DNA of 64,000 nucleotides, from assembly GCA_009760855.2 (NCBI GenBank), contig WPIO01000035.1, positions 2,162,001 to 2,226,000 of the forward strand. The letters run 5' to 3'. Source of the stretch: Cristatella mucedo (lineage: Eukaryota; Bryozoa; Phylactolaemata; Cristatellidae). This document shows positions 35,714-64,000 of the stretch, piece after piece. The translations under genes were made by a program, and so were the position numbers. The stretch's first letter is position 1. Each line of letters opens with the position of its first letter. The notes under the pieces were generated by a model that was not told the DNA's origin, made no database searches, and saw nothing but the letters and a program-made list of their open reading frames with translations.

Positions 35714-35805
35714 TGCCTGTTCCGGGTCTCGAACCCATGTCATCAATTTTATTAGTCTGTGCACTGAAGTTTTTGGTGCAGTAGCCGACCAAACTAAGCT
35801 AAAAA
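35714..35805 (-). mobile_element. tRNA-like SINE head
   Basis: In minus sense, TTTGGTCGGCTACTGCACC (A-box-like) is followed about 45 bp later by GGGTTCGAGACCCGG (B-box-like with a good T-arm). It lacks the S1 body, and neighbouring bases do not close an acceptor stem, so it is a SINE head rather than a tRNA gene. Confidence 0.45.
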
Positions 35806-36104
35806 AACGTGTATGATGAACGACATTGATTCCGGCGGGCATTTCTAGTGGGAGTCTCACTGAGACACGGTGGACGCACGTGGTCTGCAAACGAGACTCG
35901 GCTTTATTCCTCTCAAAGGACAATCGCGAGATGCGAGCTCTGATGAGAGCTCGATGAGAGTTTGATCAATCGAAATATAACCTGCATTAGTGGCCCGATG
36001 TTGAGCTGCTTCAATGGCTTAACTATTGGCGACGGGTGAGGCACGTGCATTAGAATCAGACGCTTCGCTAATTCCAGCAGAAGCCGCAGGCTCAAGCAAC
36101 ATAT

Positions 36105-36181
36105 ACACTAACTGATTTAGCAGACTCATTTGTATAGCAACAGAAGTGCCGCAACGGCCATCACCTCAGCTTGCTATATAG
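36105..36181 (-). mobile_element. S1 SINE 3' part, interrupted by the hAT element
   Basis: ACTAACTGATTTAGCAGACT, ATTTGTATAGCAACAGAAG and GGCCATCACC match the reverse S1 3' end. It stops at the hAT element, and S1-like sequence seems to resume at 37046 (GGCAGTAAAAGTATTGCC). Confidence 0.6.
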
Positions 36182-39240: not shown

Positions 39241-39415
39241 ATACTAGCTGATTAGACAGCCTCTTTTTGTATAGCGACAGAAGAGCCTTCAAGGCTATCA
39301 CCACCGCTTGCAGTAGCGATTAAGGATCGCCCACTGCAGGATTCGAACCCACGACCTCGGGGCCGAGATCGTGAAAAGCAACCGCCTTACCTAATGAGCC
39401 ATTACGGCACACCTT
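39241..39415 (-). mobile_element. S1 SINE
   Basis: Full reverse copy: AATACTAGCTGATTAGACAG at the left, AGAGCCTTCAAGGCTATCAC, B box GGATTCGAACCCACGACC, A box CAACCGCCTTACCTAATGAG. Confidence 0.9.
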
Positions 39416-39762: not shown

Positions 39763-40945
39763 ATAATAATAATAATAATAATAATATTGCACTTGATAAA
39801 GCGCCCTCAGAGAACTTAATCTCTTTCTAGGCGCTTTACATTTGCTGCAAAGTGATACGCAATAGAATAGTAAGTAAAATCATGCTTGAAAAACAAACAA
39901 AATGAATAACATGGTTAGGGGTTACATGCACTGGGTCAGCATGCAAATGTGGTTAGTGGCAGCATGCACAGTGTCAGCACGCATAAGCACATCGAGGACG
40001 AATCACAAGGACCCACTAAATGCTGTCCTAAATAGGTGTGTTTTTAAGTTTCTTTTAAATGTGGTCAGGTCAGGGGATGTTCTGATGCAGGTCGGGAGGG
40101 AGTTCCAGGCTGTGGGAGCATACGAGCTAAATGCACGGTCTCCAAAGGATTTAAGGTTTGTACGAGGTATTTCTAGACTGTTGGATTCCGAAAAGCGAGT
40201 GGTACGATGCTTTGCCTGATGGGGTAGTATATCTGAAAGATAGGCTGGAGCCATAGAATGAAGAGACCTAAAAGTGAGCGACAAAACCTTGAAGTCAATC
40301 CGTTGCTTGACTGGTAACCAGTGCAGGTCGGCGAGAAGTGGAGTAATGTGTGGCAACTGCGACGCTCACGACAGACAAGCCTAGCTGCAGAGTTTTGCAC
40401 CAGCTGCAATCGCCTGATCGCACATGCTGGTAGGCCAGTAAACAGTGAGTTGCAGAAGTCGAGACGAGATGTCACGAATGCATGGACCAACTTGGACGTG
40501 GTATCCTTATCTAAACTAGCCCTAATTTTAGCAATGTTATGAAGCTGAAAATAGGCTGATTTGACTGTGGAGCTGATGTGGTCGTCTAACGAGAGGTCGC
40601 TTTGGAATATGACACCTAGATTTCGAGCTGATTCAACTGGGAATATGCTGGCAGAGCCAATTTTGAAAGTCAGCCTTTCCAATTTCTGAATAACACTAGG
40701 TTTGCCCATAACTAGTAAGTTAGTTTTATCATCGTTTATTTTTAGAAAATTTGCTGCCATCCATGATCGGATATCATCAATGCATGCAGCAAGTGAGTTG
40801 AGAGAATGTGAGGTGCTCGAAGGCTGGGAGGGATCAAAACAAAGGTACAACTGAGTGTCATCCGCATAGAAGTGAAAGCCTAGATTGTGCTTGGCAATCA
40901 CATCAGCGAGAGGGAGAGTATAAACGGTGAAAAGGACCAGATGGC
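39763..40945 (-). mobile_element. LINE A 3' part with intact-looking RT C-terminus
   Basis: An (AAT)n tail at 39763, hairpin, 3' untranslated part, then minus frames covering the RT from after the catalytic core to the end of the ORF (40003-40356 and 40173-41009 in two frames). The frame ends ...RAFSSYAPTAWNSLPT, then LKTHLFRTAFSGSL. Nearly identical to 62115-63270 base for base. It breaks off at about 40945 (after the VYTLPLADVIAKHN block), where Gypsy sequence soon follows. Confidence 0.92.
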
Positions 40946-41004
40946 CGTCGTTCAGAAACCCAATAGCGAACCGAGGGTCTGCATTGGCGATCCTCTGATG
41001 ATCG

Positions 41005-42000
41005 GCCACTAAATGATGCTCTCACACGACGGCGTTATCAGATAAATATATTAGACGACGTGCAGCCCAATATACGGATATTGAGCTAGGTCGACATCAA
41101 AAGGCCTCTTGGCAAGTACGATTAGACGACGAATCAAGCAAGCAGATCGCAATGATCACACACACGCTGGAAGATTTCGTTGTGCAAGTCTGCCTTTTGG
41201 TATAAAGGTGAGCAGTACGATCTTTTGAATGGGCCTGCATGAAACAATCGGGTGGTCTGATTAATAAGAACAATAATAATAACAATGCATGCATACAGTA
41301 CCATCGGAGAACTTAATCTCTTTCTAGGCACTTTACATATGCTGCAAAGGAAGCATGACCAAATGGTGAATGGAGTTGTCTGTGTTACTGATGACATCCT
41401 GGTGTCGGGATTTGGTGACACGAAGCAGGAGGCTAAACAAGACCACGATACAAACTTGGCAGCACTGGAAAAACATTGCCTCGAGCGACACATTTAACTG
41501 AACAGTGCCGAGGTGGCTTTCAAGCAAGATTGAGTGACCTCCACGGGACACATACTATCTAAGAATGACGTATCAGCAGACTCGGAGTGAGTGGGGCGCC
41601 TCCTCCCACTGGTGCTGCAGCCCTTCTAAGGTTCAATGGTAATTTACTATACCTAGCTCGTTTTGTATAGGAAATATCCTCAGACCTGACATTACTACCG
41701 GTGCTAACCAAGAAGGATGCCGAATAATCATGTGACCCGAAATGCCAGCATCCATGTAAGCAGTTCAAAGAAAAGCTTGTAGTGGTGCCTGCCCTTGCAT
41801 ACTTCGAACTGACTTAAAGTCTGATCCAGCAGGCTGACATTAGCCAGACGGGCGTTGGTACTTTTCCTCGACAAGACGGCGGGCCTGTAGAAAAGTATGC
41901 CTTACGAGCACTTACGTAAGCCGAGTAGAACTTGGAACTGCTGGCAGCTGTATAGGGATTAGAGCGATTCGATCAGTAGACCTTTGGTAGAGATATAATC
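41005..42000 (+). pseudogene. Gypsy-type pol relic: reverse transcriptase and RNase H start
   Basis: Plus-strand pieces in shifting frames match Gypsy (Ty3-like) pol in order: the RT region with ASLPFGIKVSS (about 41185), the catalytic block VVCVTDDILVSGFGDTKQEA (about 41375-41435), the connection with GHILS (about 41545), then RNase H fragments LELLAAV and FDQ.TFGRDIIV (41930-42000). Stops, shifts and a LINE A tail insert (41268-41362) break it. The next domain piece resumes after a LINE B copy at 42478. Dead copy; described only. Confidence 0.8.
41268..41362 (-). mobile_element. LINE A 3' tail inserted in Gypsy RT relic
   Basis: AACAATAATAATAAC, then GGAGAACTTAATCTCTTTCT and AGGCACTTTACATATGCTGC: a severely truncated minus LINE A copy lying between the LPFG and DDIL parts of the Gypsy RT. 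Confidence 0.8.
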
Positions 42001-44125: not shown

Positions 44126-47100
44126 GTATTGCATCACTTTTTGCATTGTTTTTTATGACAGCCTGAACCGATGTTTCTCATGCTTTTCAGCATAGCAAAT
44201 TCCTAGAAATGTATCAACCACTGCTATGAAACTGCTTCGGGACTCTTTTTTCATCCATATCAGCTTCTTTGCAAACTATTTGCTCTTTATGAGCTTCTTT
44301 ATCTGTCACTCAAAAAAGTGGTTGGTTTGAGCTTTGCCTCTGACAGCTGAGGAAAGACATCTTGCACACACTTGAAAGCTGCGGACTCATCGTCTAGAGC
44401 CATGAAAAACTGCTCGGTGAGACATTACTTGATTTTCGCTTGAGACATCGGCATCCTTGATGGTCTAGCGGTGGTTCCCAAGTTTTGCTATTCTTTCATT
44501 CAGATGACTCAGTCCACTGTTGTCTGTACGTTCCGCAAAAGTATGTCCTTACATCCCGGCTGTCCTGTAAGCCAGAAAACGAAGCAAGTTTCGCAAACCA
44601 GTCATGAAGGCCTATCCTTAAAGGCATAATTGTGAAGCCTCAAATGACTTCTCTGCCAAGGTCGCCATTCTTCAAGGCACTTGGTAGAATCACGACATCA
44701 GTGGAGTAATCTTTAAGGAACGAGGGGAACACGGGAAAGACTGGCGCTTGTTACGACTATAAAGCAGCATGGCTTTGAGGTACTCGAGAACCTGTCTATG
44801 AAAAGGCATAATTAACACCGCCTACAGGTTATTCCTACATCCTCACTGTCCACATTGTTGCAGAAACACAGCCCATCTTGCCGACTATAGAAGTTAAACA
44901 AAGCTTTCGGCACTTTAGCATGTCTGTAACTTTAGCACTTCCTTCCTACGAGATTCACTCATTCAGCTTACATGTTCTTTGTTAAAAAATCGGACGTGGT
45001 AAGACTGAGACTCATGATAGGATTGTTGAGTTGTTTCTGCTTTTTGGAATATTGCTTTTCATTCTTGGCCACATCAGTACAAACAGCTGCTCTTGGGAAT
45101 AGTCACTAATGGGATGCCGTGGTGACCAGATTTTCTACGGCTTTCCTAGCGGCTGGTAGTGTCCATCTTGATTTCATTGAAATCTGGTTAACATGACCTG
45201 AACTTACAGTAGCTATCGTGGCTCTACTTTAGAAAACGTGCCAAATGCTTAAAAAATCGGCTACTGGCTCTGGTCTCTCACTGCAATGTCAAACCATTGG
45301 TATTAGCTATAGAGTGCCAACTATATTTATTGAATCTGAATCTCATGAGAAGGCTGCTAAATTTACACATAATAGTTTCGGCTGCCCTGCAAGCTGATTC
45401 GTCCGGCGCTAGTACTCAGAGCCCGACATTGCCTCTATTGCAAGGTTGCTCCTTTAGAAGGTCTTAGCCAGTGACATTAATTGCGACAGTGAAGAAGGCT
45501 TCAATTAGAATTTGGCCAACCTGGCTTTTAGGGAACCCCGATTTTTAATAATAGCTACTGAAGGTTACCATACCATACAATCACTTTCTTCCTACATTAA
45601 GGAATCCAATACTTTATTGAACTCACTTTTCATTGCATTTTAATTGATAATTCCTCACTACTTTGTCGGCTGCTTTTGTTTGTCAGCTTCTCAATCTTGA
45701 TTTAATGGAATTTTCTGTAAATTACTGTTTACCCAAAAACTTCTAATTTTGAACGCATTCATATTTATTTTCTTCAAATACATTATGAAGCCCAGTGCTT
45801 CCATTCGTGTGCAACCACTAGGGCAGCCAACAATTCACTACTAGACTTATGTTTAACTGGACTTGTTGGTCTATTACGGTACACATGTGCAATCACTATT
45901 CGCTGTATTTCTATTACTTGTTTGAGGCTGCACTCGGCCAGATCAGATTTTTTTTGTGGATATTGAATATTGCTGTCATCAAACCTCTCTCAACCAGTAA
46001 GAACATCCCGCAGGTTAAGTCAATGCCTATGAGTAATGCAAAATTATCATTTTCCTGGTCAGTGCAGTGAATCTTCAAATTAGCTTAGCATTTGCTATAA
46101 AAGCTCGGAATGAATTTTCTAAAAGAGCTAGAAATCAAGCATGTTTAATGATACTGCTCTAGAAGTAGATTTAAATTCTTCACAATTCTACAGCTTTACT
46201 ATTGTGTACTGTTATCACAAGATGACGATGATTGAGATTGTATGTTTCACTCTTTTCGGACCCACGCTATGCAGAGAGATTTTATTGTTCCACTTAAAGA
46301 GCTCAATTTACCTGTTGTCTTTTCCTTGAGATGCAATTAATCTACTACATCTCTCCATTTATCTACATATCTATGCATTTATCTCTATCTGTCTCTCTAT
46401 CTATTGCTCTCTCTCTCTCTCTCTTTCGGTCTCTTACCCTCTTAAGGTTTATAGGTAATGAACCAGCTCTGAGTCAACCGTGCTCTATGGAATCTTCAAA
46501 ATCAGAATTATAAAGGCTTTCTATTCAGTAACCTCTAAGGGGTTGTACATGTATTTACGAGTTTTTGACCACGATCAATGTATTAAACCAGCTGCAAAAA
46601 CGCCCATCACACTATTGATTGCACATCTCCAATTGCATGGTGAGAGAGTATTTGCCCCATAGAGCGATGACTAAGCAATGGTTAGACTTACTTGTATACC
46701 TAGAGGCACCGTTTAGAGCCAGTTGAATGACATTTAAGTGACCAACCGAATCTAAGCCAGCACATTATCGCTGACTGATCGTACATTGGCGTCTATTTGA
46801 TTATCATATCTCAGCACAAGATGTAGTGTTCTGGCATCCATTTATTCAAAGCTGACAAGAGAACTAGATTGCCAAATATAGCAATGTGTTTTTTTAACGG
46901 CCCATAGCCAGGCTATGGCTTTTTTCGTCAAAGGTTATGCAATAGGATGGCTCAGCAAAGCACAATTCGGCCTGAAGTCTTGACCCAAGCAAAACGCATG
47001 TAGACTCTGAGAACCAGTAGTGCCTGCCAGTCTGGAACGACAGATGAAGAAGTGTGGCCTCCACAAGGTTTTTTATCAGTAGATATGGCCCAGATATGAA

Positions 47101-48082
47101 GAATGTATACTATTTGCTGCTACCAGACAGACTAGTAATGTTTATGAGGCCACGAATGAGCACAAGGCAATAGTGACGAGCCAGCATACTACCACTCAAC
47201 CTCTGACCACTTCAGCCAAGAACCTTTCTGACTGCTCTCAGCAAACGTCCTCTTCGTGACCTCAGACGGACCACACTGCATGATCACAACCTGTTATATG
47301 CTTCCTCTGCTTAATTAGCCAGGTTTCAGTTTTCTCACTAGCTGTTTTGTTGGTACGAGCTCTATTGTGCTTCTAATAAGAGTAAGGAGCTGTGTTCTGT
47401 CGGCTGAAACAACTTCGCATTCAGTGTGCCTTCACCGCACTGCTCGATCTCACCTTCAGCTACTGTACAGAACTGGATGATTCCGGATAACAGACATACT
47501 GGTGGTGCCGGAGATCACTGCTGATTGGCGGTATATCCGGACTCCAATGCCAATTGAAGCCTTCCAATTCCACATCAGCTAAGGCTGGTCAGAGCCTGCT
47601 ACTTAAGAAAAACCATGGCATTGAGATTGATTATACATGATGGCGTGCTCAGCCAATAACAATTATGTAGGACTACTATACAATGAACCTGTTTGTTGCT
47701 CATATTTTCTCGATCTTTGCTACGGTTCATGATATGTTGTCGGTTACGTTATTTAAGATCATAATTTTCTTGACCGTTGAAAGGAAATGGGCTTTCGGCA
47801 GCACTTTATCTCACACGCTCTTCATCGATCATTGTTTAAAAATAGCCAACAGATATATTTGAGTACTTCCCTGCTGTGCCTTTCTTAGAACTGTAACTTG
47901 ATTATGCGGGAAAAGGTCCCATTGAAAAAATAGAGATTCTTATTATGCCCAAAACGAAGGTCTTCTTGTAGCTTTACCATTGGCTATGCACAAAGAAAAA
48001 TTGAGACCGCGTATTAAAAGCAACGGTGCATTACGATTTATCAGCAATCATTCGCATAGCTGCACTACAAATCTCAGTTAAA
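44126..48082. other. Unassigned DNA 3' of the sulfotransferase gene
   Basis: No gene recognised in 4 kb. A (CT)n run at about 46385-46440 explains the Leu/Ser frames there. The sulfotransferase 3' UTR must lie at the right end, but no canonical poly(A) signal close to 48083 was found. Confidence 0.45.
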
Positions 48083-48192
48083 TCAATCATACATAATTGG
48101 AACTTTGCAGCCAGCCAGCTCCGACGAGATCCATTCATCAATCCGCTCACTTTGTGCTACAGTTAGCTGGCTTTTCCAATCACCCGATTGAC
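48083..48192 (-). CDS. Sulfotransferase exon 7 (residues 258-293 and stop)
   Basis: The acceptor CATCTTTCTAG is followed by GQSGDWKSQLTVAQSE and ends ELAGCKVPIMYD plus TGA at 48085-48083. G-x-x-G-x-x-K completes the conserved RKGxxGxxK PAPS site. K264/T268/V269/E273 form the KxxxTVxxxE dimerisation motif. The 3.1-kb intron before it contains an old LINE A copy, a worn S1 SINE and palindromic AT tracts. Confidence 0.92.
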
Positions 48193-51100
48193 CTAGAAAG
48201 ATGTATCTCATGCTGCATACGATACGTAAAGCAGATCTGAAATATCAAGCTAACGAACAAATACCATGAGTTGTACTGATGCACTAATGCACTTGCAAGA
48301 CGAAAGTGGCTTACTAACAGCATGCATGCTATCCATGGAATAAGGGCCTCCTCACCAAATCAATGTGAGCTCACTTCTAAATCACTCATCACTATCACAA
48401 AATTCGGATAATTGCCACGGTATGTCGAATCATTTTTGAGGCATGATTAGAAATCAGTTCTTACGGTACGCTAAAGTGTTTAGGCGAGCGGCTATTTCAG
48501 ACTAATGCTTAATCAGCTTGGTCAGCTTCATCAGGCTAATAGCTCAGGGTTAGACTTTCACTTCACGACTTAGGTAGTGGTTTTGAGTCGTGCAGCAGTT
48601 CATCCTGCATTTTGACCCCCATAAGTAGAAAAGATGGCTTCTCATGCTGAACTGCCACGGTATAGATGAGGCTGCTGAATCAGCCAAATTTTAGTTTACT
48701 TAGTCCTAAAGTGTGTAGCTCCTAATTTTAGGAACGCCTGAATTACCTTAAATCAAGCTACACTTATTTCAACCAGGAAATAAATGTTTTCAAATCATTA
48801 ATTAGCTAACAAATGGGCAGTTAATTGCAGACGAAAAATTCGAATACCGACAAGGACATGTACATCTGTAAGCAGGTATTTTCGTTGTTTTATTATTCTG
48901 TGGAGGACTCTCTGAATTTTTGAATAATCTTATGGCCCTGAGAGAAAGTACTGAATAAACTGAACATCCTAAGGAAATGAGGCATCAGTTGGCGAAATCA
49001 GAACTAGAACTTTTGCTTTTGGCTTTCACATATCACACAGCTATGTAGGCAATTGGTGAAAGAAATCTGTAATTGCAGCAGATGTTAAAATAAATATATT
49101 CTAAAACGATAGCTTTGCTTCAATACTTAAAAGAATTTTGACGTATTTGACGATTCCATCGAATGAATGAATTTTTTATGGCTAGATTTAGCAATTTCCA
49201 TAAAAGAAAGCAAGAATCCAAACAATCGCTTATAGAATTTGCACAAAATCTGAGTGTCCTGTTCCAAAGTGACCATTCACCGGGCAATCACATGTGCTCC
49301 TCAGTCAAGTTGGCCTATTTTTAGCCAGGTAAAATTGCAAAAAATTCGGGCTACTTAGACTGGAATGTCACATCTTAGTTGTTAAATGCTTTTGTAACAT
49401 CGTGTTTACATTACTCGCAGATCTTCCAACCTGAGCGATAAGGTGCTGATAGTCGGTGCAATACTCATCAGTTATGCTCGTCTGTCGTAAGCGTCACTAT
49501 TTTCACATTCCACCACATCTGCTCTGGCTCCCGTCAAGCAGTCCATCCACTACAAGGCATTTCACTTCCTTTTGTGTCTCTCCATTCTCTTTCTTTAGCC
49601 TAATTGTGGGATTTTTTCCTCAATTAGGCAAATCATCTGTTCACCTGCTCTATGGACTCACGTCCTCTAGCTGAGGATCGGAGCAACCTCAAATTCTTTG
49701 AAGAAAACGCCTTTGGTTTTTATGCTCCCAAAGCGTGACATCATTCATGAATTGAGTCACGACATGTAACTACTTGAAGCCTTTGTTAAAGAAGCTAAAA
49801 CCATACCTACTCCTCACAGCATTTGTTGGGTCAGTGTGAGTCGTCCTTTGTGTGCTTATGAGCGTTGACACTGAGACGCTTCATCTCAAAGTTATTTAAT
49901 TAATTAATTAAAGTATTTTATTTAATTTATTATATTTAACATGATTCCTTGACAGCATTAACAAAGTAACTAAAAAGAGATTATTTCTCTTAGGCAAAAA
50001 TCTTATTGTTATTACGATTATCCAGCACTGACAGAGCGACAGCAATCGGTAAAACAACAAACCTTAAAGCAGCTACATATCATATCTAACCTCTACCAAT
50101 TGTCTCTAATAAGGTCACACACTAGTGATGATGAGCCTCACCTTCTGTAACAGCATGACTGCTTGATTGTGTGCATGATTAACCTTTCAAGGTTGAATTA
50201 ATCAGGAATCTATGACAGCTGTTTCATACTATCTACACTTTCGATTCTTTACAAGCCGAGATATTGTACAGCCGCTTCATACCTTGAGCAGTGTACTAAG
50301 TTCTGCTGTGGCTTATTAATGTATGTTCTGGTCTCTTTCAATTATCAAAAGCAAATGATCAGTTACAAGAGAAACTTGTAAGGAAGAACAAAGTAAATGT
50401 GTACTTCAGTTGCATCACGGTAAAATGATTTGCTACTGTCTGGCAGATTTTTGAATATCTGTCGGGAACTTTACTGTTTAGGAAGCTGATCATACTGACA
50501 TTCTCAAGAGATTTTTTATCTAAATGTACGTCACCAGGAAAGCATTCAGTGTTGGAGCTGAACATAGACGAGTATATTTATACATGCATATATACATACA
50601 TATATAGATATATATATATATATATATATATATCTATATATATAGTACCAAACTATATATATATATATATAACTAAGATATATATATATATATCTTAGGC
50701 ATAAGGAAGTATGACTATCTTAACAGAATATTTAGTAAAGCTTTTGCAAATATTAGGAGGCTGGTCCGTAGAATGGCTTTCATGAACTCCGTGAATTCAA
50801 TGATTTTACCTGGGAATGTAACATGTGTACATGAGTCACAAGCTTCCCACTCAGATCATATGTTCTAAGGGCGAAGGTTTCATCCTATTAAAATATCGTA
50901 GTTCCAGCTTTTAAAAGTACACAAGTACAATTCCTGACCTACTGTGCAAGCCAGATTGTTACCGTATCGAAGGATCTTTGTTGAAACCTCTTCTCTGATT
51001 CCAGTATCTCGTGATAACGAGGCCCCACGTACACTTAAGTTACATTGTAGCCAGTTTAAAGTGTATGTGTGTGCGCATGTGTGTGTATGCGTGTGTGTGC

Positions 51101-54100
51101 CTACACCTGTGTATGTGCGTATTAGTACAAATTATTATACAGACATATGTTACACTGTGGAATTTTTCTTTGCAGCATTATCATTTAAAGCTTAAATCAA
51201 ATAGAAAATTGGCAAATATTATTATACACCTTTCATCGATAAGGTCAAGATAAAAACTGACAGAATTTTTCGCGAATATTACCTTTTCTGAGGAAGTCTT
51301 TGTCTACATGCTTATGCATCTCGCCGAAGGACGAACGTCGAACGATCTCGTCGATTTCGTGGTCACTTAATTTCCTCTCGAGGAAATTGGCAATACTGAC
51401 AACGGCTGCACGAGGATCCTATTGATTAATCCAAGTGATAGGAGAAACATTTAGTGGCATTATACGATACTTAAAAGGCACGAAAATAGAGAGCTTCTAT
51501 AATATATGAGTAAGCCTTCTTTAGCCATTACCAAATGAATCACTTAGCTGAAAATTAAATTGAACAATACCACTCATGTCTACATTGTAAGGCAAAGTGT
51601 GTGCTATTGCTTTTAGTTTACTCCTCGCCTAGTAGTGCATTCTTAATAAAGTAGTCGACGGAATTTTTGTTCTAATTTCTGGAGATACGCATTTTCATGG
51701 TCAAATTTCTTTTTACCGCCTAGAAAATTAGCGTCTCAAAAGTGAATTTCTTGTCACAGTCAGTGAATGGGATGCAGCTTTGGGGCTAAACATTTTTATT
51801 CTGAAAGAAATCTTAAAATAGCGTTTGCAGATTTCTGAAATACCCGGAGAAATTTGTGTATGAAAAAGACGGATATATATACTATCAAAACAAAAAATCG
51901 TGGTGTGGCTTTTTGCCTAACGAGAATTTTAGTAGCTACTAAAACAGTTTAAGATTTAACTCCTATCGGTGGCTGAAATATCATAATATGATCACATTAC
52001 ATAAATTTACTAAGTAGCTAATGGAACTGGCTTGCTTCCTTAGCCACTCACTGATGAGTACAGAAAAAGGCCTGCAGTTTACAGGAACGTCCTATATTCG
52101 GATTGAACAACAACACTGTCAGACTACTAGTACTTTTAGACCTAAACACTTTAGGCTATGGGAGGATTTCGGTAATTCCGTATGTAACTAGCACTCATAA
52201 ATTCTTTCGCTAACATTTATGTAAATCCAAAAAGCTACTTATGTTACCATGCGAATTGATTTCGTTATAATAACTAGTTAGGGAGCTTCCAAGAAGCCAG
52301 TTGTGACCAAAATGTGAGTACAAGTAGAGTATTTAATCGTTTCGTTACAGATAAAAGAATCGAATTTTTACGATTTAATTTTATACCTGAAAACTTCTGC
52401 AATAGTGAAACAAATTCTCACTTCCGTTTAAATCAAGCCATTATTGGTGTTTAATCAAAGCCTACAAATAGCCATAAGCAAGGGATAGGCATGTAAATGT
52501 ACCTTCTTCATTTCTTCAAAAACCAATGTCAAAGCCTTTGGGCAGCTGCCTTCTTTAAACCAGTTTTTCATGCAGGTTGCGTAACTTCCGTAGCAGACTA
52601 TAAGCATAAGCAAAATAAATTTAGACTTAGCTGACTGCAGTCGACTAGTTCAGTAGTCTAAGTTGACCTGTCTAGACCATGTTAACATTCACATGAGCAC
52701 ACAGGAGTACCCCAGGGCTCACACATTCGCACACATAAATACATGTGCACACACAGACACAGAAACACAAGCACACACATTGGCAAACATCCAGAATGAC
52801 AGAAACTTAGGTGGCTGCCCATGCGTGCTAGCTTCGAGATGAGTTCAAGAAACACACTTTGATTAGCTCAGCCAGTTATTCTTTGCTAAATGCGACATCT
52901 TCCACATAGCAGCTCAGCCACTAATAAACACCTATTCAGCACTAAGGCAAAAGATAAATAGCCTAGTACGAAATCTGACTGGCCATGTGGTTCATACTGT
53001 AGGCATTTTTGAATAATGCCACAGTAATGGAATTTCTAATAAAGCATTCTATGCAATACTCCTAACAACAAATATATCTCTTTCTAGTACACTCAAGCTT
53101 TCTAGTAAAATCATGCAAGGTCTTCTCAATTGCCCATTTGAGTTCAATGTCAAAATCGGCAACAATTAATTTTGACCAGTCCAATAGCAGAGAATTCAGC
53201 CATAACCTTATTCAGTATTAGGTGACATTGAATCAGAAGGCAGGCACCTGCAATGCACTCAACAAGCCAAGACTATGCTTAGGCTCTGAAATAAATAAAT
53301 TCGTTAAAGAGAAAATGTATATTCTTTACAAATTACGAGATTTCAACGCTTAAACAGCCAAATTCAAATGAGGAGCATTGATGAAGGCACAGCATAGACT
53401 TTCATAGTGACTGTCATATTAAGGAAATATTTTCAAACTCGAAGAAATTCATCTGCAATAAGGCATAGTTGCACTCATAAAATTAGATAAGACCCGAGTC
53501 ATTATGGAGTCAGCTGCGAAACAAATTGTCTCAGATAAGTCACGCACAAAAATCCACGACTTCGGGATATCGAGAACAGCCACAAACCAGTGATAAACTC
53601 TCGATGTTACTTTACCTGGCAGTAGAAATATTCCCAACATTTATTTAGGCTAAGCGATTAATGTGGCTCCTACACTAGTAGCGCCTGATCCTTTTCCGGA
53701 GTGAGATTAAAAGAAAGAGTGCTTATTTTTATCCAGCTGGGCCGGATCCTAATCCTAATGTAGAGTGACATTAGTGACAAGAGTCGACAACACCAATAAC
53801 TGCAGTGGCCTAAAAGATAAATCTATTTAAGTACAGCAAATAAAAATCAGCCACGCCACTGTAAATTACCCTTGCTCAGTATAGTTAAAGCATGGGTTCA
53901 TTGAACGGTAGACAGTAATGCTTGAGCCGTGATGGCACACTAGGTAAGGTGGTTGCTTTTCACGACCTCGCTCCCGAGGTCGGGGGTTCGATTCCTGCGG
54001 TGGGCGATCTTTTATCGCCACTGAAAGCGGTGGTGATAGCCGTAAAGGCTCTTCTGTCGCTATACAAAAGAGGCTGTTTAATCAGCTAGGATTTCTTTTG

Positions 54101-54304
54101 TTCAGAAAAACATAGCCTACTGAAAATGAACATTGCACACTCACACACCCATGCACATTCCCACACACATCCATACACTCAAACATAACCCACACGCGCT
54201 TACACCCCCCCACACACACAGACGGACACATTCACATGTATATATATATATATATATATATAAATATATTCATATTTCCTACAATTTTTTTTAATAAACT
54301 AGTT

Positions 54305-54388
<84 letters not shown>

Positions 54389-57300
54389 GGGCAGTATACA
54401 TATATGCACAGATAAGAACGGCATTCAGATGTAAATCCACATAAATTATTAGGTACATGAATGTGGCTGCAAACTATGAGCTACAAACCCAACATGCTAT
54501 AATATTTTGGATGCCCGCCTAAGCTCATGCAACACTGAATCGTAAGAAAGACAGCTAAGACACAGTATCTGTTTTCTTGAGCGTGTTCGATGCTGGCTCC
54601 TTATTTACTGCTTTTTTAAATGCAAAGGTTGCGAAAGGTAGCGACTGGGATCCTTTTTAAAAGATAGTTTACGGTCTCTGATCACGAGGAATCAATTGTT
54701 ACCAACACAAGTTCTTAGGCAAACCATCGAAAATTAAAATTCAATGTTAATAAATCACCCTATCAGGTATCATATGCATTGGCTTGGAAGATGTCTTTTC
54801 AGCTCATTGGCAGTTTATAATGTGATCTGTATAAGGTTTTGTGAAACATAAAGTTCTCTTAACAGAAGTGGTCTACAATTTTCAAACCCTTGATCCTAGT
54901 TGCTTTAAATTCCCTAGCATACAAGTTCCCCACGTCATAACTCTTTAAGTGAAGTTAAGCCACAGCCCACCGCATCATGTTTGCTTACATAAGTAAGGTT
55001 TCATCGTAAGCTGAGTACTTACAAGGAAATTTTACTTAATGCCTAAAGCCTCACCTCTGCCATTAATAAACCACTCAAAATACTCGTGGAAAGGTACGTC
55101 TCGAGTAAAGTTGTTTAGCTTCTTTTCAAAATGGTAATAACTTGTGCAGACGTCTTTTGGGTTCCTGACAACTCTTATGACCTGATAGATGAAATAAAAA
55201 AAGGCTCAACAAGACTTTACGGTTTTTCGGGTATAAAGAAGCTTCAAGTTTGCATATTTTCTATAAAAAAAACTGAAGGCTGATCGATAACAACACAAAC
55301 ATAGTTGTGCATACTAATAATAATAATAATAATAATGCACTTGATAAAGCGCCCTCAGAAAACTTAATCTCTTTCTAGATGCTTTACATTTGCTGCAAAG
55401 GGAAATGCATTTGAATACTAGGCGAATAGGCATTTATACTGACAGCAAGTTTTGAATAAAAAGTTGAATTTTTTCGAGGTAACTTATTGTGGTAACTCAC
55501 GAAGTCCTGTGCATCTTTTTTAGTCAATGATGTTCTGTGTTATCGCTATTACGGCTCACTTTTTGCTAAATACTTTGCAACGTCTGGAATAGCCCATTAG
55601 CTTGCGAAGAATTGCCTAACATTAGCCACTTTTGATATAAATAATCAACATGTGCTACTCAAGAGTTAGTCGTCTCGCCTGTTTATCACAGGAAATGTTT
55701 TGCAATGATTTAGTTTTTGTCTTAATGAGCACTTTTTCTGCGGGGCATAATGCATTATGCCAAACAAATCTAAGCATGTTTTTGGTAAGGATGAATTCAT
55801 GTAATCAGCTGCTAGGTTTTGACCTTTATTTCCCTAAAAAAGAACTCTCTCTTCACAAGCAAAAGGAGTTTATAGGTCGAGGATGACCATATGAACAACT
55901 TTAAATAAAAATACACGTGACGCTTGACTTGTGTCAAAGCTCATAAAAACAAGTACTGCACACCTGGCTTACCGTGCAAACGTATTCTACGAGCTGCAGC
56001 ATTGCAAGTGAAAAACACACCAGTCACCAACAGCATATATATCACAGTATAATCGGCTAAACCTACTCTGGAACTGTGATGGGCTATAATGGAACATCAT
56101 TTCTTAAATTATTGTTCGCTGAGAGGGTACTTAGTACTCACTTAATGCGTTTGCAGCACTGATTGTGTATATGCGTACTGTCTAGAAGGAATCTCTGCAA
56201 TAATTGAGAAGAGAGATTAATTCCACTGATAGTGGAGAATGTAGTCCGACCTCCTCAGGCAGTTGTTTAGGCAACCTGTCGGAGAACGTGTAGGCAACAT
56301 TTTAAGAAACATCGTAAAACATTACCTGTGCTCTATTTTTAGAGAATGGATGGCTTCTTAGTGTTTAGAGTTTTTCTATGCTATGTAGAATTTTTTACTG
56401 AGGGAAACTCCCAGATCAATAACCCGAGACGCTGGTTGAATTAAACCTGACGAAAACCTCCCAGAAATAAGCTACCATTGCGGTTCGTGTTGATGAGACA
56501 CTTTCAGCTGCAAAAACATCACCACAGTAACAAAAGAAGCAGTTGCTGCTTATGCACCGAGGCTACCTTGGAGAGGTGCTGTTTACCTGATGATTTTTCA
56601 GCAAAGATTGCACTGACAGGGAATTATGGTGACCTATTAAAGTATGGTTGGTAACCTATTCGTAATAAGTTTGTCTATATTTAGCCGGAAGATAAATATA
56701 CAATGATGAATTCTCTTTACCTTCGCCGTAGTATCTGGAGCGATTAGCTGGGCTGGAAACAGATGATAAGGCAGGTGCGAGAATATGACCCTTGGCGACG
56801 GTTCGGCGTCCAAATACTGGAAGATTTCCTGCCACGTCTTCCCAGCTAAGAACGAAGTATTTTAAGCTGTATTGCACATAATTCACCTGTATTAGATCGC
56901 GTGCACGGCAACAACACAGCATCTTGCAGAACACTCCCAGAACTGTCCTAGCAAGACACTCCAGCTCTTCTCTCCTACGGCTCCATTAAGACACACTAGC
57001 TAACATAATGACATATTAATAATGACTTAATAAAAATATAGTAAAAGAAGAATTTCTAAACCCCTATTAGAAACAAACCTCTTTCTACACATTAACAATA
57101 TGATGGTAAGTACATCATTTTGGACAAAACCAGGGTGGCCATTAAAGTGAGTGACAAGTATAAGTAACAGTGCAACTGTATCACGAGACGGAGCTGTATT
57201 CAAAGCGGCGTCCCAAGCCAGCTAATTAGCGCTGCAAGAAGGCACCGGTCGTACCAGGCTCGAGCTCTCGGGGATAGTCGATGAGTTCAAGTGGCATGCT

Positions 57301-58169
57301 CGATGGCTTTTCGACATTTGAACCATGCAAAATCAGTGATGCGACAGTGGCTGCCCAGTGAGTACCTAAAACAAGTCGGGGAACAGCAGGGCGTCAATGC
57401 ATAGTGCAGCAACTCCATGGATCAATTATGGCTAACAAGCACTGCTAGGCTCTCCTGCTGAAGTAATTAGCACAGCATCTTGCTGACAGATGCCTTGTCA
57501 AGTGCAAAGCTCCCTGCAGGCATGTAGTACTAGAACTGCTACATCAACCTCTAGTCTACCCCGTAGGTACAGTGTGGGTGCACGCACCAACAGAATGCCC
57601 CACAGTGCTAAAAAGTTGAAGGTAATCAGCTGGCCGTTCAGCAGGTGGGCTTAAGAAATCCTAGGTTTCTCTAAGCTCAGTAATAACAGATTACTACTGG
57701 TTGGGAAATTCGGTCCTTCTTAAATTAGCCGCAGCTGAACTTCAAATTACCTAAGGCTTTCTCTTGAAATAATCACTCTTTGCACGTCAATCGATTGCAG
57801 GCCTGTGTATATGTGTAATGCTGATCCACTAGCTGAAGCAATAATTACCTTAGATGCCTAATCAATTAGATTCATAAATTGAAAGCTGGCAGAGCTAACA
57901 AAGCAAAGGAAGAAGAAACACGTCGAGCCTCAGCCTGATAGGGCTTCAGTACACTAATTATCACTGGCTAAAGGAAGATATGCATTCTTCATTCCAAACT
58001 TAGCACCAGTGAAAAATTGCGTCCCTAAATGGTTGATAAAAATCACTGTGGTTTGCAGCCAATATTCACTATACGATATGCTACAACTCAGCACAATGCT
58101 TACATCACTTCCAGCTTCAGTAAATTTGAATGTCTTACAGCCACTGATGGGGAGTGGCAGCTATTTGCC

Positions 58170-58205
<36 letters not shown>

Positions 58206-60264
58206 TACTTGATAAAGCGCCCTCAGAGAACTTAATCTCTTTCTAGGCGCTTTAGATTTGCTGCAAAGGGAAATGCAATTGAATGGTAAGTAAAATCATG
58301 CTTGAAAAACAAACACAATGAATCACATGGTCAGGGGTGACATGCACAGGGTCAGCATGCAAATGTGGTTAGTGGCAGCATGCACTGTGTCAGCACCAAT
58401 AAGCACGTGAAGGACGAATCACAGGGACCCACTAAATGCTGTCCTAAATAGGTGTGTGTTTTAAGTTTTTTTAAATGTGGTCAGGTCAGGGAATGATCTG
58501 ACGCAGGTCGGAAGGGATTTCCAGGCTTTGGGAGCATACAAACTAAATGCACGGTCTCCAAAGGATGTAAGGTTTGTACGAGGTATTTCTAGACTGTTGG
58601 ATTCCGAAAAGCAGGTGGTACGATGCTTGGCCTGATGGGGGAGTATGTCGGAGAGATAGGCTGCCTTATCTTTCTGAACTGCTCACTTGTAAGCCCGTCT
58701 GAGCCAGTTGATTGGCTTTTGCGACCCTAAAGAGTGGCCTCGAGCGACTACATGTTCAGTGCAGACTTTCAGAGCTTAACTTCTCCGTGATGCCTTCTGG
58801 TATTTTCCTGATAATTTTGCTTTGTTTTCTCGATAATTTTGCTTTGTATGTGCAAAAGCTCTTAGGAAGGCTTCTCAAAACAACCTGCTCATAAAAAATG
58901 TCCATGTTGACATTAGTCAATTCCTACTAGCCGCTTTCTTTGGAGGTTGGATGAGAATTTTCGAGTATCTGGCATTTGCAATAGAAATCGCATGTCCTTC
59001 AAATCTACTAGCCATAAGGGTAATGGTCTGCTAAAAATGCTAGTAAATTATTGTTTGCATCTTAATATAGCTGAGCTCTTTCTGGGACCCTTGCATAAAA
59101 TAAAAGTAAAAGCTAGTTCTATGAATAGCCTCATTCGCTAAGTGAGCAGAAGAGCTGCAGAGGCTATAACTCTAGCTTGCAGTGGGAATAAAAAACTGTC
59201 TGCTGCATGACTCACAATCAAGATCAAGATTGCGAAAATCACTGGCAACGCAGGATTTCAAGTTAATCGTTAAGGTAACGTTCAAATTTTCAAAAAGTGT
59301 GAGCACAAACCTGAAAATGTGTGTGGGAAAATCATAGACTTGAGAAACGAATGTTGAGCTAAAATATTAGTCAAATCGAGGGTAACTAGCAATGCACTGA
59401 TGCAGCCAGTAAGAAATTTCAGTCTGTTTGTACACATGACCGTCAGCCATTGTTTCCGGGAATTTAAAGTATATAAGAAGCATGACAAAAGGTCGAGAGT
59501 CAGAAGTGCAATTGATGCAAGGGAGAGGAGCTCAAGTTCCCCATTTACTGATTAAACAGGTATCAACTTGCGAATTTTCTGGAGGCATCTCACACAATGG
59601 TTACCTGCGAGTATTCTGTATCTTCATCATAGCACAGGAGAAGCTCATAACTCTGGGATAGTCACTTCGAAATCCTTCTACCCCACAAGCAGCTACTGCT
59701 AACAGCCACTAAGCGTATCAGATGCCTGTGCCTCCGTTTCATTAGCATTTTGTGATAGTAACTTTTGCACTGCTGATTCTTATAGCGCTTTCTAAAGCTC
59801 ATTTACAGTCGGCCGCGAAAGGATCTCACATCTGTTTGGTGATCAACACAAGAAAGCCACACTGAGCAATGCTGACGTGGGTTTAAGGACACGCCAAACG
59901 CGTTGGCATTCTTTGTACGGGTGATATGAATATAAACATGACTCACACGTAGCACAATTCATGCATATGAGGAGTGGCAAGTGTGAGTACGTGAAAACAC
60001 ACTTACGCACGTACAGAGGTGCATACGAGTGGTCATGGAGCATGAGTAGTGGGCAACCAAATTCTGCAGTTTACTCCCTTCCTTACCTGCTTTTGGATAG
60101 GTCCAGATAAACACGTCATCTGCCCTTAGTCGATTGGCCACATACTCGTTCGCAGCTGGTATTTTTACTGCTGGCGTAAAGGAGTCGAATAGTATCCCGT
60201 CAAAAGTATGAATTGGGTATCTAACTGAGCCGGCCGGACTATCAGGGATGGAGCTATCGCTCAT
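48083..60264 (-). CDS. Cytosolic sulfotransferase (SULT family), 7 exons, 293 aa
   Basis: The protein transfers sulfate from PAPS to a small acceptor (alcohol, phenol or amine class; substrate not predictable) in the cytosol. Exons on the minus strand: 60087-60264, 57255-57365, 56721-56845, 55055-55181, 52503-52597, 51283-51418, 48083-48192. Every junction is GT-AG with matching phase, and the total of 882 nt gives 293 residues plus stop, the usual SULT length. Seen: PAPS loop TYPKAGTHW (res. 55-63), FSHLP with catalytic-type H120, RNPKDVCTSYYHF (144-156; R144 and S152 fit the 3'-phosphate ligands), RKGQSGDWK (256-264), and KSQLTVAQSE (264-273) matching the KxxxTVxxxE dimer motif. Odd: the Lys that normally precedes the catalytic His (KTHLP) is Phe here, and TTW is THW. 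Introns carry S1 SINEs, LINE A pieces and microsatellites. UTRs and poly(A) site were not found. Family assignment is secure; the subfamily is not. Confidence 0.93.
48529..48690 (+). mobile_element. S1 SINE, diverged, in sulfotransferase intron 6
   Basis: GTGGTTTTGAGTCGTGCAGC (B-box side) and GAGGCTGCTGAATCAGCCAA (3' end) resemble S1. The middle is poorly preserved. Confidence 0.5.
49440..49890 (+). mobile_element. Old LINE A relic in sulfotransferase intron 6
   Basis: Degenerate plus-sense RT C-terminus: MLVCRKRHYFHIPPHLLWLP parallels the RLVCRERRSCHITPLLADLH block of the 62-kb copy, and LLKKLKPYLLLTAFVGSV parallels its FKRNLKT.LFRTAF end. No clear tail. Confidence 0.6.
50581..50700. repeat. 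Palindromic AT-rich tracts
   Basis: Two TA tracts. The second, 50673-50698, is a perfect 26-bp palindrome (CTAAGA, TA run, TCTTAG). The first is bounded by TAGATA/TATCTA. In sulfotransferase intron 6. Confidence 0.9.
51283..51418 (-). CDS. Sulfotransferase exon 6 (residues 213-257)
   Basis: Encodes DPRAAVVSIANFLERKLSD, then EIDEIVRRSSFGEMHKH, then DKDFLRK, matching the family blocks for the helix before the C-terminal P-loop-like motif (I..FL....S, ...I....SF..M). The acceptor (AATCAATAG) has a weak pyrimidine tract. The donor AAAG|GTAATA leaves phase 1. Confidence 0.93.
52503..52597 (-). CDS. Sulfotransferase exon 5 (residues 181-212)
   Basis: The acceptor is CTTATGCTTATAG. The exon encodes VCYGSYATCMKNW then CPKALTLVFEEMKK, aligning with the family's YGSWFDHV...W and ...L.L.YEDMK blocks; the usual YED is FEE here. 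The donor is AAG|GTACAT and the phase at the end is 0. Confidence 0.92.
53921..54090 (+). mobile_element. S1 SINE (best copy), in sulfotransferase intron 4
   Basis: CTTGAGCCGTGATGGCACAC, A box TGGCACACTAGGTAAGG, B box GGGGTTCGATTCC, body GAAAGCGGTGGTGATAGCCG and end AAAAGAGGCTGTTTAATCAG. The least damaged copy in the window; antisense to the host gene. Confidence 0.92.
54235..54389. repeat. (TA)n and (CA)n(TA)n microsatellites
   Basis: TA tract at 54238-54265, then CA about 54308-54362 followed directly by TA to 54389. In sulfotransferase intron 4. Confidence 0.97.
55055..55181 (-). CDS. Sulfotransferase exon 4 (residues 139-180, 3'-phosphate site)
   Basis: A strong acceptor (T-rich tract, CATCTATCAG) is followed by VIRVVRNPKDVCTSYYHFEK, the most conserved SULT block, which binds the 3'-phosphate of PAPS through an Arg and a Ser (R144, S152). 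It continues to FHEYFEWFINGR and ends AGAG|GTGAGG in phase 1. The HEYFEWFINGR segment fits the helix that precedes the YGSW-type loop of the family. Confidence 0.95.
55317..55425 (-). mobile_element. LINE A 3' tail, in sulfotransferase intron 3
   Basis: (AAT)6, GCACTTGATAAAGCGCCCTC and AATCTCTTTCTAGATGCTTT: a clean reverse LINE A tail, truncated after about 90 bp. Same strand as the host gene. Confidence 0.87.
56721..56845 (-). CDS. Sulfotransferase exon 3 (residues 97-138, catalytic His)
   Basis: Acceptor TTCTTAG and donor AAG|GTAAAG. The exon encodes GKTWQEIFQYLDAEPSPRV followed by IFSHLPYHLFPAQL. PSPRV and HLPYHLFP align with the family block around the catalytic histidine (H120). The usual Lys two residues before this His is replaced by Phe118. 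The exon ends in phase 0. A different frame of the same DNA gives a longer open frame (56656-56934), which is a shadow. Confidence 0.93.
57255..57365 (-). CDS. Sulfotransferase exon 2 (residues 60-96)
   Basis: The acceptor is a pyrimidine-rich tract ending TTTTAG at 57366. The exon restores Gly60 and continues THWAATVASLILHG, matching the helix after the PAPS loop, then a variable stretch ending YPRELEP. Two donors keep phase 1: CTG|GTACGA (end 57255, preferred because +3 and +5 fit consensus) and ACCG|GTGCCT (end 57246, adding three residues). The 2.7-kb intron before it holds a LINE A 3' fragment. The exon is too short to appear as a stand-alone open frame. Confidence 0.88.
58172..58662 (-). 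mobile_element. LINE A 3' part, in sulfotransferase intron 1
   Basis: (AAT)10 tail, hairpin, then 3' untranslated part and the end of the RT ORF up to GATGGGGGAGTATGTCGGAG, colinear with 62110-62580. Truncated at about 58662. Confidence 0.9.
59140..59215 (-). mobile_element. S1 SINE 3' scrap
   Basis: AGCAGAAGAGCTGCAGAGGC and AGCTTGCAGTGGGAATAAAA resemble the reverse S1 body. Short and uncertain. Confidence 0.35.
60087..60264 (-). CDS. Sulfotransferase exon 1 (residues 1-59, start codon)
   Basis: The ATG is at 60264-60262. The exon encodes the N-terminal segment with the family-typical patch FDGILFDSF (res. 21-29) and then DDVFIWTYPKA leading into the PAPS loop. It ends GCAG|GTAAGG, a strong donor, leaving one base of the codon for Gly60 (phase 1). 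This start is chosen because it is a true ATG about 50 residues before the PAPS loop, as in cytosolic SULTs. Reading through the donor loses all similarity to the family. Confidence 0.92.
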
Positions 60265-60950
60265 GGTGCTCGTAGTTGTCAGTGGTTAGTGTTCAGCTGC
60301 AAGCAGCCAAGTAGCAGACAAGAGTCAGTGCACCAGCTGGCATTGGAAGCTCGAGATAACAGCATGAACAGCTAAGCAATCGCCCATTGGTCGTGATAAC
60401 AGTGCTCACTAATGTAAATATACATTGTAAAGCTAAATAGGACATCAAGCTGATTGGCAAGCTTCCAAATTTGATCTTCGATAGTTTAGGTATGTCGAAC
60501 CTGTTATACTGGTAGCCGAAAGCTACTGGTCTCAGGCACAAATCTGAATCAATTGCTTTTCTGATCGAATAAACCTTTCAGGTATCGTGCTCCTCTGTAA
60601 GCTTATTGGCCCACACAAGTTTCTTGTCCTGGCAAGAGATATTTTTCCGCTTACCCTCCGAAAGTTCCCTCATATCATGAAATTGGCAGCTGGCCAACCT
60701 CAAGTTATCTTGTATGCTACCACTCCAAGTCATCACTGCTTTGCTGGGGAAGTCATTGCATTCCAACCAATACAGAACAACTCTTTTTCGGCACAAATGA
60801 GCTCCCTCAACTTTCATTGATCACCTTAAAAATGATATCATTTTCGACCTGAAAATAACTCGGCAGGCTCTTAGGTAATGCAGCTCGGATTAATTGGTGT
60901 GCATTATTATTTGAGACCGTAAGATCAGCTTTTCGAATCAGTTAACCATG
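60265..60950. other. DNA upstream of the sulfotransferase start
   Basis: Must contain the promoter and 5' UTR, but no TATA box or known element was identified. Overlapping 77-82-codon frames lack motifs. Confidence 0.4.
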
Positions 60951-60954
60951 TACA

Positions 60955-61092
<138 letters not shown>

Positions 61093-61639
61093 CATAGCCA
61101 AAGCCTGCACTAGGGCTTCCAAACTGAATTAGCCGGCATATCAGTATAGCTTCGTCGCTAAATCCGGGTGTCCAGATCCATATGTCTGTTCACTATATGA
61201 CTACATCAGCTTCACCTGAGGTCTAGCTAATGTCACCCTCGTAACACTGCCGATATCAATCTCACTTAGATGAAAATAACAGCCAGGCTGCTCCCTGCAT
61301 CCAAGATATCAGATTAGACTTATGCAAGTCACTATGTAGAGTCTTTTATATTCCAGTGAGGAAAAATTAGTGCTAACACAAGCGTTATACGGTGCATGTT
61401 TCCAGCCAGCGTTGGTACTGGTCAGTAGCTTTGAGTGACATTTTAACTTTGGCATGCTGGCTGAAGTATTTTAGTTGTATGATTTTGCTTGCTTGTCTAA
61501 GTATGATAATATGAATGACAATAATATGCTGTTAATAATTCTCTTTAGAAAGTTTTGATGTGTCTAGGTAAAGATTTGTTTCCCCTGCATCGCTATACAG
61601 ACTTTCTATAACTGTTATTATCATTATTATATCCAAGTG

Positions 61640-61910
61640 CCAATGTCATCAATGTAAGCTTGGAGGAAGTTAAATGAGATCGACGTCCTGGAAGGCGAGA
61701 AGGGAACAAAGCACTGACACAATTATGTGTAATGTACATAAAAATAAATCCTAGATTATTCTTGACATTCACATAAGCAAGAAGGATAATAAGAATTGTG
61801 AAATAGGTAGACTAAGCGTAAATTCATTAAGTAATTTTTTTGTTAACGGTTGTTATGATGTCGATTGGCCATTGACACCAATGCTCTGCACTTGCCCACT
61901 GAGATGGGAC
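61640..61910 (-). mobile_element. LINE A RT relic
   Basis: TGTCATCAATGTAAGCTTGG..., GGAACAAAGCACTGACACAA, ATCCTAGATTATTCTTGAC and CTTGCCCACTGAGATGGGAC align with 63115-63390 of the good copy, heavily worn. Confidence 0.65.
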
Positions 61911-61924
61911 GTTAAAAACATTAC

Positions 61925-62109
61925 CATGCTTTACTTATGCTTATGCGTGCTGACACTGTGCATGCTGCCACTACAAACATTTGCATGCTGACTGTGTGCA
62001 TGTCACCCCTAATCATGTTACTCATTTTTTTATTTATCAAGCATTATATTACCCACCATTCAACTGAATTTCCCTTTGCAGCAAATGTAAAGCACATATA
62101 GAGAGATTA
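61925..62109 (+). mobile_element. LINE A 3' end, plus orientation
   Basis: GTGCTGACACTGTGCATGCT, CATGTCACCCCTAATCATGT, CCCTTTGCAGCAAATGTAAA then a worn hairpin, running directly into the AAT tail of the next, opposite copy. The pair is tail to tail. Confidence 0.82.
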
Positions 62110-64000
62110 TAATAATAATAATAATAATATTGCACTTGATAAAGCGCCCTCAAAGAACTTAATCTCTTTCTAGGCGCTTTACATTTGCTGCAAAGTGATA
62201 CGCAATAGAATAGTAAGTAAAATCATGCTTGAAAAACAAACAAAATGAATAACATGGTTAGGGGTTACATGCACTGGGTCAGCATGCAAACGTGGTTAGT
62301 GGCAGCATGAACAGTGTCAGCACGCATAAGCACATCGAGGACGAATCACAAGGACCCACAAAATGCTGTCCTAAATAGGTATGTTTTTAAGTTTCTTTTA
62401 AATGTGGTCAGGTCAGGGGATGTTCTGATGCAGGTCGGGAGGGAGTTCCAGGCTGTGGGAGCATACGAGCTAAATTTCACGGTCTCCAGAGGATTTAAGG
62501 TTTGTACGAGGTATTTCTAGACTGTTGGATTCCGAAAAGCGAGTGGTACGATGCTTTGCCTGATGGGGTAGTATCTCTGAAAGATAGGCTGGAGCCATAG
62601 AATGAAGAGACCTAAAAGTGAGCGACAAAACCTTGAAGTCAATCCGTTGCTTGACTGGTAACCAGTGCAGGTCGGCGAGAAGTGGAGTAATGTGGCAACT
62701 GCGACGCTCACGACAGACAAGCCTAGCTGCAGAGTTTTGCACCAGCTGCAATCGCCTGATCGCACATGCTGGTAGGCCAGTAAGCAGTGAGTTGCAGAAG
62801 TCGAGACGAGATGTCACGAATGCATGGACCAACTTGGACGTGGTATCCTTATCTAAACTAGCCCTAATTTTAGCAATGTTATGAAGCTGAAAATAGGCTG
62901 ATTTGACTGTGGAGCTGATGGGGTCGTCTAACGAGAGGTCGCTTTGGAATATGACACCTAGATTTCTAGCTGATGCAACTGGAGATATGCTGGCAGAGCC
63001 AATTTTGAAAGTCAGCCTTTCCAATTTCTGAATAACACTAGGTTTGCCCATAACTAGTAAGTTAGTTTTATCATCGTTTAGTTTTAGAAAATTTGCTGCC
63101 ATCCATGATCGGATGTCATCAATGCATGCAGCAAGTGAGTTGAGAGAATTTGAGGTGCTCGAAGGCTGGGAGGGATCAAAGCAAAGGTACAACTGAGTGT
63201 CATCCACATAGAAGTGAAAGCCTAGATTGTGCTTGGCAATCACATCAGCGAGAGGGAGAGTATAAACGGTGAAAAGGACCGGACCTAGCACAGAGCCCTG
63301 AGGTACTCCAAATTTTAGAGGTACTTCAGATGATCTTTGTCCATTCACGTCAACACTCTGGAGTCTCCCACTGAGATAGGACCTGAACCACTGCAGAACA
63401 GTGCCAGTGATGCCCAGGCGAGATGAGAGGCGCTCTAGAAGTACTTTGTGATCGATGGTATCAAAAGCTGCCGAAAGATCGAGCAAAACAAGAAGAGACA
63501 CTCTACCCATGTCTGCATTCCTAAGTAGGTCGTTGTATACCCGAAGCAATGCTGACTCTGTGGAGTGATTAGCTCTAAAGCCAGACTGGAACTTACTAGC
63601 AAGGTGTGAGGTTTCGATATACGAGTTCAGCTGGTCTGCCAAGACCCGTTCCAGTGTCTTTGATAGGAATGATAGAAGGGAGACTGGGCGATAGTTACTC
63701 AAGTTCTCTTGGTCTAGTGTAGCTTTCTTGAGAAGTGGCCTGACTACAGCTTTTTTGAAAGGTGCTGGGACCTGACCTGAGGCTAATGACATATTAATGA
63801 TGTTGGTTATGCATGGCAGCAGCAGATCAATGCAACGTAGGAGCAGGACAGTGGGAATAGGGTCCAGTGGACTTGTTGTCTTCTTTGATTGAGATACGAG
63901 CTTTAGGACTACATCACTAGTGACCTATTTAAATGCAGACATTGAGGCGCAGCCAGGAACCGAGGAACAGCATTCTAGTGGGAAGGTTTTCATCGCAGGG
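62110..64000 (-). mobile_element. LINE A (CR1/L2-type non-LTR retrotransposon), best copy; runs off the window
   Basis: Order on the minus strand: RT ORF, 3' untranslated part with short repeats (GTCAGCATGCAAA), hairpin tail and (AAT)n at 62110. The element reverse-transcribes its own RNA at a nicked target. The ORF is open from 63924 to 62470 (an in-frame TAG at 63925-63927 closes it upstream; ATG at 63792, 440 codons). Seen: LSNYRPVSLL, motif [17 protein letters not shown] (about res. 100-115), GVPQGSVLGP (162-171), catalytic YVDD (195-198) and the C-terminal block LADLHWLPVKQRIDFKVL. Compared with 40.1 kb, a one-base gain near 62477 shifts the frame and removes about 45 C-terminal residues, so this copy is probably dead. 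Endonuclease is off the window. Confidence 0.93.

Follow-up and report, generated by a model that had tools for sequence, protein, structure and literature searches.

An apparently intact seven-exon gene for a predicted cytosolic sulfotransferase in the bryozoan Cristatella mucedo

Sulfotransferases of the SULT family carry four named motifs, TYPKSGT, YGSWXEH, (K)SHLP and KXXXTVXXXE, according to the available portion of one account of the family (PMC11275347). For SULT2A1, the accessible part of another source gives Lys44, His99 and Ser129 as the catalytic residues, and it names 11 residues of SULT2A enzymes in the pocket for 3'-phosphoadenosine-5'-phosphate (PAP) (PMC8134075). Loop 3 overlies the active site, with its first half covering the substrate site and its second half the site of the donor 3'-phosphoadenosine-5'-phosphosulfate (PAPS), as stated in the excerpted text of a third source (PMC4492763). 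Invertebrate SULT families can be large, as with the 83 genes of a scallop (PMC5700196), and dopamine and octopamine are substrates of tick SULTs (PMC3150262), both statements being drawn from partial texts. Here we describe a gene in a 64,000-nucleotide stretch of the Cristatella mucedo genome (assembly GCA_009760855.2, contig WPIO01000035.1, positions 2,162,001 to 2,226,000 of the forward strand), hereafter the window, in whose own numbering all coordinates are given. The minus strand between 48083 and 60264 very probably holds an apparently intact seven-exon gene for an animal cytosolic sulfotransferase, predicted to carry out PAPS-dependent sulfonation of small molecules. It is an ordinary kind of gene, one more member of the known SULT family with a few unusual active-site details.

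Gene model and domain match

When rebuilt from the sequence, the seven exons join into 882 nucleotides (nt) encoding 293 residues and a TGA stop, with no internal stop codons. All six introns have GT-AG borders, with phases 1, 1, 0, 1, 0, 1 and lengths, in order, of 2721, 409, 1539, 2457, 1084 and 3090 nt. The product matches PF00685 (Sulfotransfer_1) at 7e-56 and 189.9 bits, against a curated cut-off of 22, in one colinear stretch that places residues 49-286 on profile positions 2-254 of 255. A first-pass annotation of this DNA had proposed seven exons of 95-178 bp within the outer coordinates 48083..60264, with GT-AG borders, compatible phases and 293 residues, and the rebuilt structure agrees with it in outer coordinates, range of exon sizes and number of residues; it had also set colinearity with PF00685 as a test beforehand, which the single stretch now bears out. 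Its description of the gene as complete agrees, for the coding part and as judged from the sequence, with an in-frame TAA that begins at 60288, 24 nt upstream of the ATG, with the intact frame and with the terminal stop.

The exon borders were also obtained by spliced alignment of proteins to the DNA, with BLOSUM62 scores and GT-AG introns allowed in all three phases, and the procedure was blind to the earlier model. SULT1C, SULT1B1 and SULT1A3 sequences taken from matches in the PDB served as queries on the minus strand of 46500-62000, giving scores of 333, 309 and 319, respectively. Dinucleotide shuffles of the same segment (n=200, SULT1C query only) gave a mean of 58.6, a standard deviation of 6.5 and a maximum of 78. 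Each query regained 11 of the 12 internal splice sites. The exon 1 donor (CAG/GTAAGG), both borders of exons 4, 5 and 6 and the acceptor of exon 7 were regained by all three queries, and the exon 3 acceptor at 56845 by two of them; SULT1C placed the latter at 56828, preceded by a spurious 8-nt exon. The site missed with SULT1B1 and SULT1A3 was the exon 2 donor, placed at 57246 instead of 57255. Reading of the raw sequence had recovered a seven-exon gene with one splice site in doubt. After masking of these seven exons, SULT1C as query over the whole window scored 120 in 17 short pieces on the plus strand and 107 in 20 on the minus strand; these scores exceed those of the shuffles probably because the target is four times longer. 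No second SULT copy was seen in the window by this search, which returned chains of short pieces.

The domain signal is spread over the exons. Searched singly, exons 3, 4, 6 and 7 match PF00685 (E 2.3e-9 to 7.8e-4) with 19.3, 37.5, 21.5 and 23.1 bits, so that only exons 4 and 7 exceed the cut-off of 22 bits and exons 3 and 6 fall below it, and no PF00685 match was found for exons 1, 2 and 5 searched in the same way. The score falls to 169.6 bits without exon 1, 162.6 without exon 2 and 143.4 without exon 5 (losses of about 20, 27 and 46.5), and each of these exons therefore contributes signal. A search of the PDB gave 49 distinct sequences with E values of 0.001 or lower, the best being 2ad1 (E 1.7e-45, 158.8 bits), and the top-ranked chains are named SULT 1C2, 1B1 and monoamine-sulfating phenol sulfotransferase. 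We take 2ad1 to be a human protein and 1cjm to be SULT1A3. Identity to 2ad1 (SULT1C) amounts to 92 of 246 columns, or 37%; membership in a named SULT family is set at about 45% identity. No match to the product was found in NCBIfam. Among pattern matches in genome_contigs (35) and viral_contigs (20), none encodes a relative, a weakly informative result as these are prokaryote and virus collections.

All seven exons lie on the minus strand. Exon 1 (60264-60087, 178 nt) runs from the ATG through the first base of the Gly codon in YPKAG, part of the 5'-phosphosulfate loop, and exon 2 (57365-57255, 111 nt) begins with GTHW and supplies the remainder of that loop. Exon 3 (56845-56721, 125 nt) carries SHLP with the active-site histidine His120, and exon 4 (55181-55055, 127 nt) the 3'-phosphate-binding motif, from RNPKD to SYYHF. 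Exon 5 (52597-52503, 95 nt) encodes YGSY, the counterpart of YGSW in human proteins, together with VFEEMKK; exon 6 (51418-51283, 136 nt) continues with SSF, a shortened loop 3 and RK, the first two residues of RKG. Exon 7 (48192-48083, 110 nt) starts with the last base pair of the RKG Gly codon and contains GDWK, KSQLTVAQSE and the TGA stop. The start codon and approximately the first 45 residues lie outside homology, as matches to relatives begin at residue 44-49; the N-terminus, MSDSSIPDSPAGS, has a hydrophilic look by eye only. The G+C content of all exons together is 0.471, compared with 0.344-0.423 across the six introns. In vertebrate SULT genes the exons typically measure 126, 98, 127, 95, 181 and 113 nt and follow an identical series of phases; exons 4 and 5 here (127 and 95 nt) would then be exact size matches. 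A literature search found no published exon sizes of SULT genes among the 20 papers listed of 46.

The first-pass annotation had further described the gene as hidden in chance frames. This holds for exon 3, where the longest frame (56659-56985) is the wrong one. Among the 21 open reading frames of at least 100 residues (ATG, GTG or TTG starts), a single one, at 59959-60264, overlaps an exon, namely exon 1.

Conserved residues and competing explanations

All four motifs named in the available text on the family (PMC11275347) are recognizable in the product, one of them in part. The first of these reads TYPKAGT at residues 55-61, with Lys58 kept and Ala in place of Ser, a change shared with 2ad1, and it is followed by His62 where Thr is usual in the cofactor loop (GTHW for GTTW); a literature search gave no paper on a GTHW motif among the 8 listed, judged by titles. 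SHLP stands at 119-122 with His120, YGSWXEH reads YGSYATC, with its first three residues kept and Trp and EH replaced, and KXXXTVXXXE reads KSQLTVAQSE at residues 264-273. The annotation's statement that every SULT landmark is present in order is sustained for the motifs, although several landmarks are altered by one residue (THW, FSHLP, YGSY and VFEEMK) and loop 3 is short. SULT2A1 Lys44, His99 and Ser129 correspond to Lys58, His120 and Ser152, the His and Ser by alignment and the Lys by motif. The 3'-phosphate-binding Arg144 and Ser152 and the PAPS-loop Arg256-Lys257 are all kept, and 8 of the 11 PAP-pocket residues named in the accessible part of the SULT2A source are identical, with loop residues matched by motif. 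By homology, the product would bind PAPS through the YPKAGTHW loop, the RNPKD/SYYHF segment and the RKG motif. His120 would act as the base, together with Lys58 and Ser152, in transferring the sulfonate of PAPS to a hydroxyl or amine on a small acceptor molecule, and KSQLTVAQSE probably mediates dimerization.

Several observations weigh against an intact and active SULT gene of this structure. The exon 2 donor is uncertain: the candidates, 9 nt apart, are 57255 (CTG/GTACGA, 293 residues) and the in-frame 57246 (CCG/GTGCCT, 296 residues, three more), and spliced alignment picks 57246 with two of the three queries and 57255 with one. The PF00685 score is 189.9 bits with 57255 compared with 188.1 bits with 57246, and G at position 5, present at 57255, is the commoner donor form. 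Donor 57255 is retained with reservation. Exons 1 and 3 are phase-compatible, and a model of six exons could therefore pass over exon 2 in frame; it was rejected, as this exon contributes 27 bits and supplies the remaining part of the PAPS loop. Exons 4 and 5 have a G+C content of 0.386 and 0.421, not above that of some introns, and the nearest AATAAA or ATTAAA past the stop (46000-48082 examined) is at 46846, 1.2 kb away. Three of the 11 PAP-pocket residues are changed (Ser45 to Ala59, Tyr184 to Phe207 and Met243 to Leu255), the second of these replacing a cofactor-binding Tyr. Phe instead of Lys precedes SHLP, YGSY stands in place of YGSW, and loop 3 is short, with 23 residues from SF to DWK compared with 38 in three SULT1s (15 fewer). 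Exon 6, which contains the gap in loop 3, is read continuously, and a missed exon is therefore excluded; owing to these last three departures, enzyme activity may be altered. All departures were judged against SULT1, SULT2A and SULT4A1 proteins, a comparison set without a close invertebrate SULT, so rarity cannot be claimed for them.

The short loop 3, the Phe before SHLP and Phe207 could also belong to an inactive or orphan SULT of intact look. The model for such a protein is SULT4A1, which is also short in loop 3 and has no PAPS-dependent catalytic activity described in the available portion of its source (PMC11275347), and for which a role in yeast has been argued, as given in the abstract of a further source (PMC8803991). 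We regard this explanation as improbable. The SULT4A1 structure 1zd1 ranks 36th of the 49 PDB matches, with 89.5 bits compared with 158.8 for the best, and is not the closest relative by sequence; Lys58, His120, Arg144, Ser152 and RKG are kept here, whereas SULT4A1 has GRGRVGLWK in place of RKG..GDWK; and SULT2A1, a working enzyme in the accessible part of its description, equally lacks Lys before SHLP. Still less likely is a recent pseudogene or silent duplicate whose frame remains open. In its favor, no polyadenylation signal was found within 1.2 kb of the stop in the segment examined; against it stand 882 nt without a stop or frameshift, 12 of 12 intact internal splice dinucleotides and the retained catalytic residues. 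That a motif-aware reader joined open frames by coincidence would fit the failure of exons 1, 2 and 5 to match Pfam singly, but the alignment score of 333 compared with a shuffle maximum of 78 (n=200) rules it out, and dropping any one of these exons costs 20 to 47 bits, leaving a vanishingly small probability. The first-pass judgment that coincidence is very unlikely accords with the blind scores of 309-333 above that maximum. An apparently intact SULT gene that is presumably expressed remains by far the best explanation.

Repeats and other features of the window

A repeat that starts near a (TAA)n run, related to the LINE-derived sequence described below, has copies at 39763-40062, 55311-55420 (intron 3), 58179-58478 (intron 1) and 62106-62405, which are 90-98% identical to the 39763 copy, and a member of another family lies in intron 4 at 54007-54088. 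None of the copies checked near the gene, drawn from the 20 listed of 24 direct families and the 25 listed of 328 inverted pairs, overlaps an exon. An inverted pair of 147 nt and 88% complementarity (53923-54069 and 39265-39411) contains the box GGTTCGATTCC, noted by eye, and may be a tRNA-derived short interspersed element. ARAGORN found no tRNA in the window, and Rfam gave no match at the gathering score.

On the minus strand at 62470-63792 lies a copy of a non-LTR (long terminal repeat) retrotransposon, or long interspersed element (LINE), with a 440-codon frame matching reverse transcriptase PF00078 at 3.8e-32. Together with the kilobase-long introns and the type of SULT, this reverse transcriptase points to an animal genome. 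A related LINE copy at 40173-41009 (minus strand) has a weak end match (3e-5, below the cut-off), and a third related copy at 21339-21935 (minus strand) shares DNA repeats with both others and has no Pfam match at E up to 1. A long near-palindrome at 34083-37045, with arms of 519, 229 and 111 nt that are 94-95% complementary and a center of about 1.2 kb, is perhaps a foldback element. Overlapping frames of at least 100 codons occur on both strands at 6347-7351, perhaps a G+C-rich island; the one frame tested there (6475-6906) has no Pfam match at E up to 1. A Cys-rich frame of 143 codons at 25935-26366 (minus strand) has a signal-like start and by eye resembles a galactose-binding lectin domain, with no Pfam match at E up to 1.

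Comparison with named sulfotransferases

Compared with its best match, SULT1C (2ad1, named Sulfotransferase 1C2), the predicted protein has a colinear catalytic domain at the 37% identity given above and shares the PAPS loop, RNPKD, SYYHF, RKG..GDWK and TVAQ. It differs in a loop 3 that is 15 residues shorter, in GTHW for GTTW, in Phe for Lys before S/THLP, in Phe for Tyr in YEDMKK and in a short insert ahead of EPSPR. SULT2A1 (3f3y, 4ifb) also has no Lys before SHLP (FSSHLP) and has EYFEWF in common with the product, and it scores lower overall than the best match, at 126-127 bits. With SULT4A1 (1zd1) the gene shares the short loop 3 and, on the available text, a structure of seven exons and six introns (PMC11275347); unlike SULT4A1, with RGRVGLWK, it encodes RKGQSGDWK.

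The histidine in the cofactor loop has a described counterpart in mouse SULT2A8 and SULT2A3, in whose 5'-phosphosulfate-binding motif a His is flanked by Thr47 and Trp49 (His48 in SULT2A8, His62 here), and His48 of SULT2A8 serves as an alternative base, according to the accessible part of their source (PMC8134075). It is doubtful, yet conceivable, that two candidate catalytic bases, His62 and His120, together with a cut-down loop 3 lid, could open the pocket to large or unusually oriented acceptors, such as invertebrate polyhydroxylated sterols. In combination, His62 and the short loop 3 would offer a natural test of how both positions set substrate choice. As described in the same partial text (PMC8134075), Leu99 takes the place of the usual histidine in SULT2A8, a histidine kept here as His120; both histidines are reported for mouse SULT2A3 and are present in the predicted Cristatella mucedo protein.

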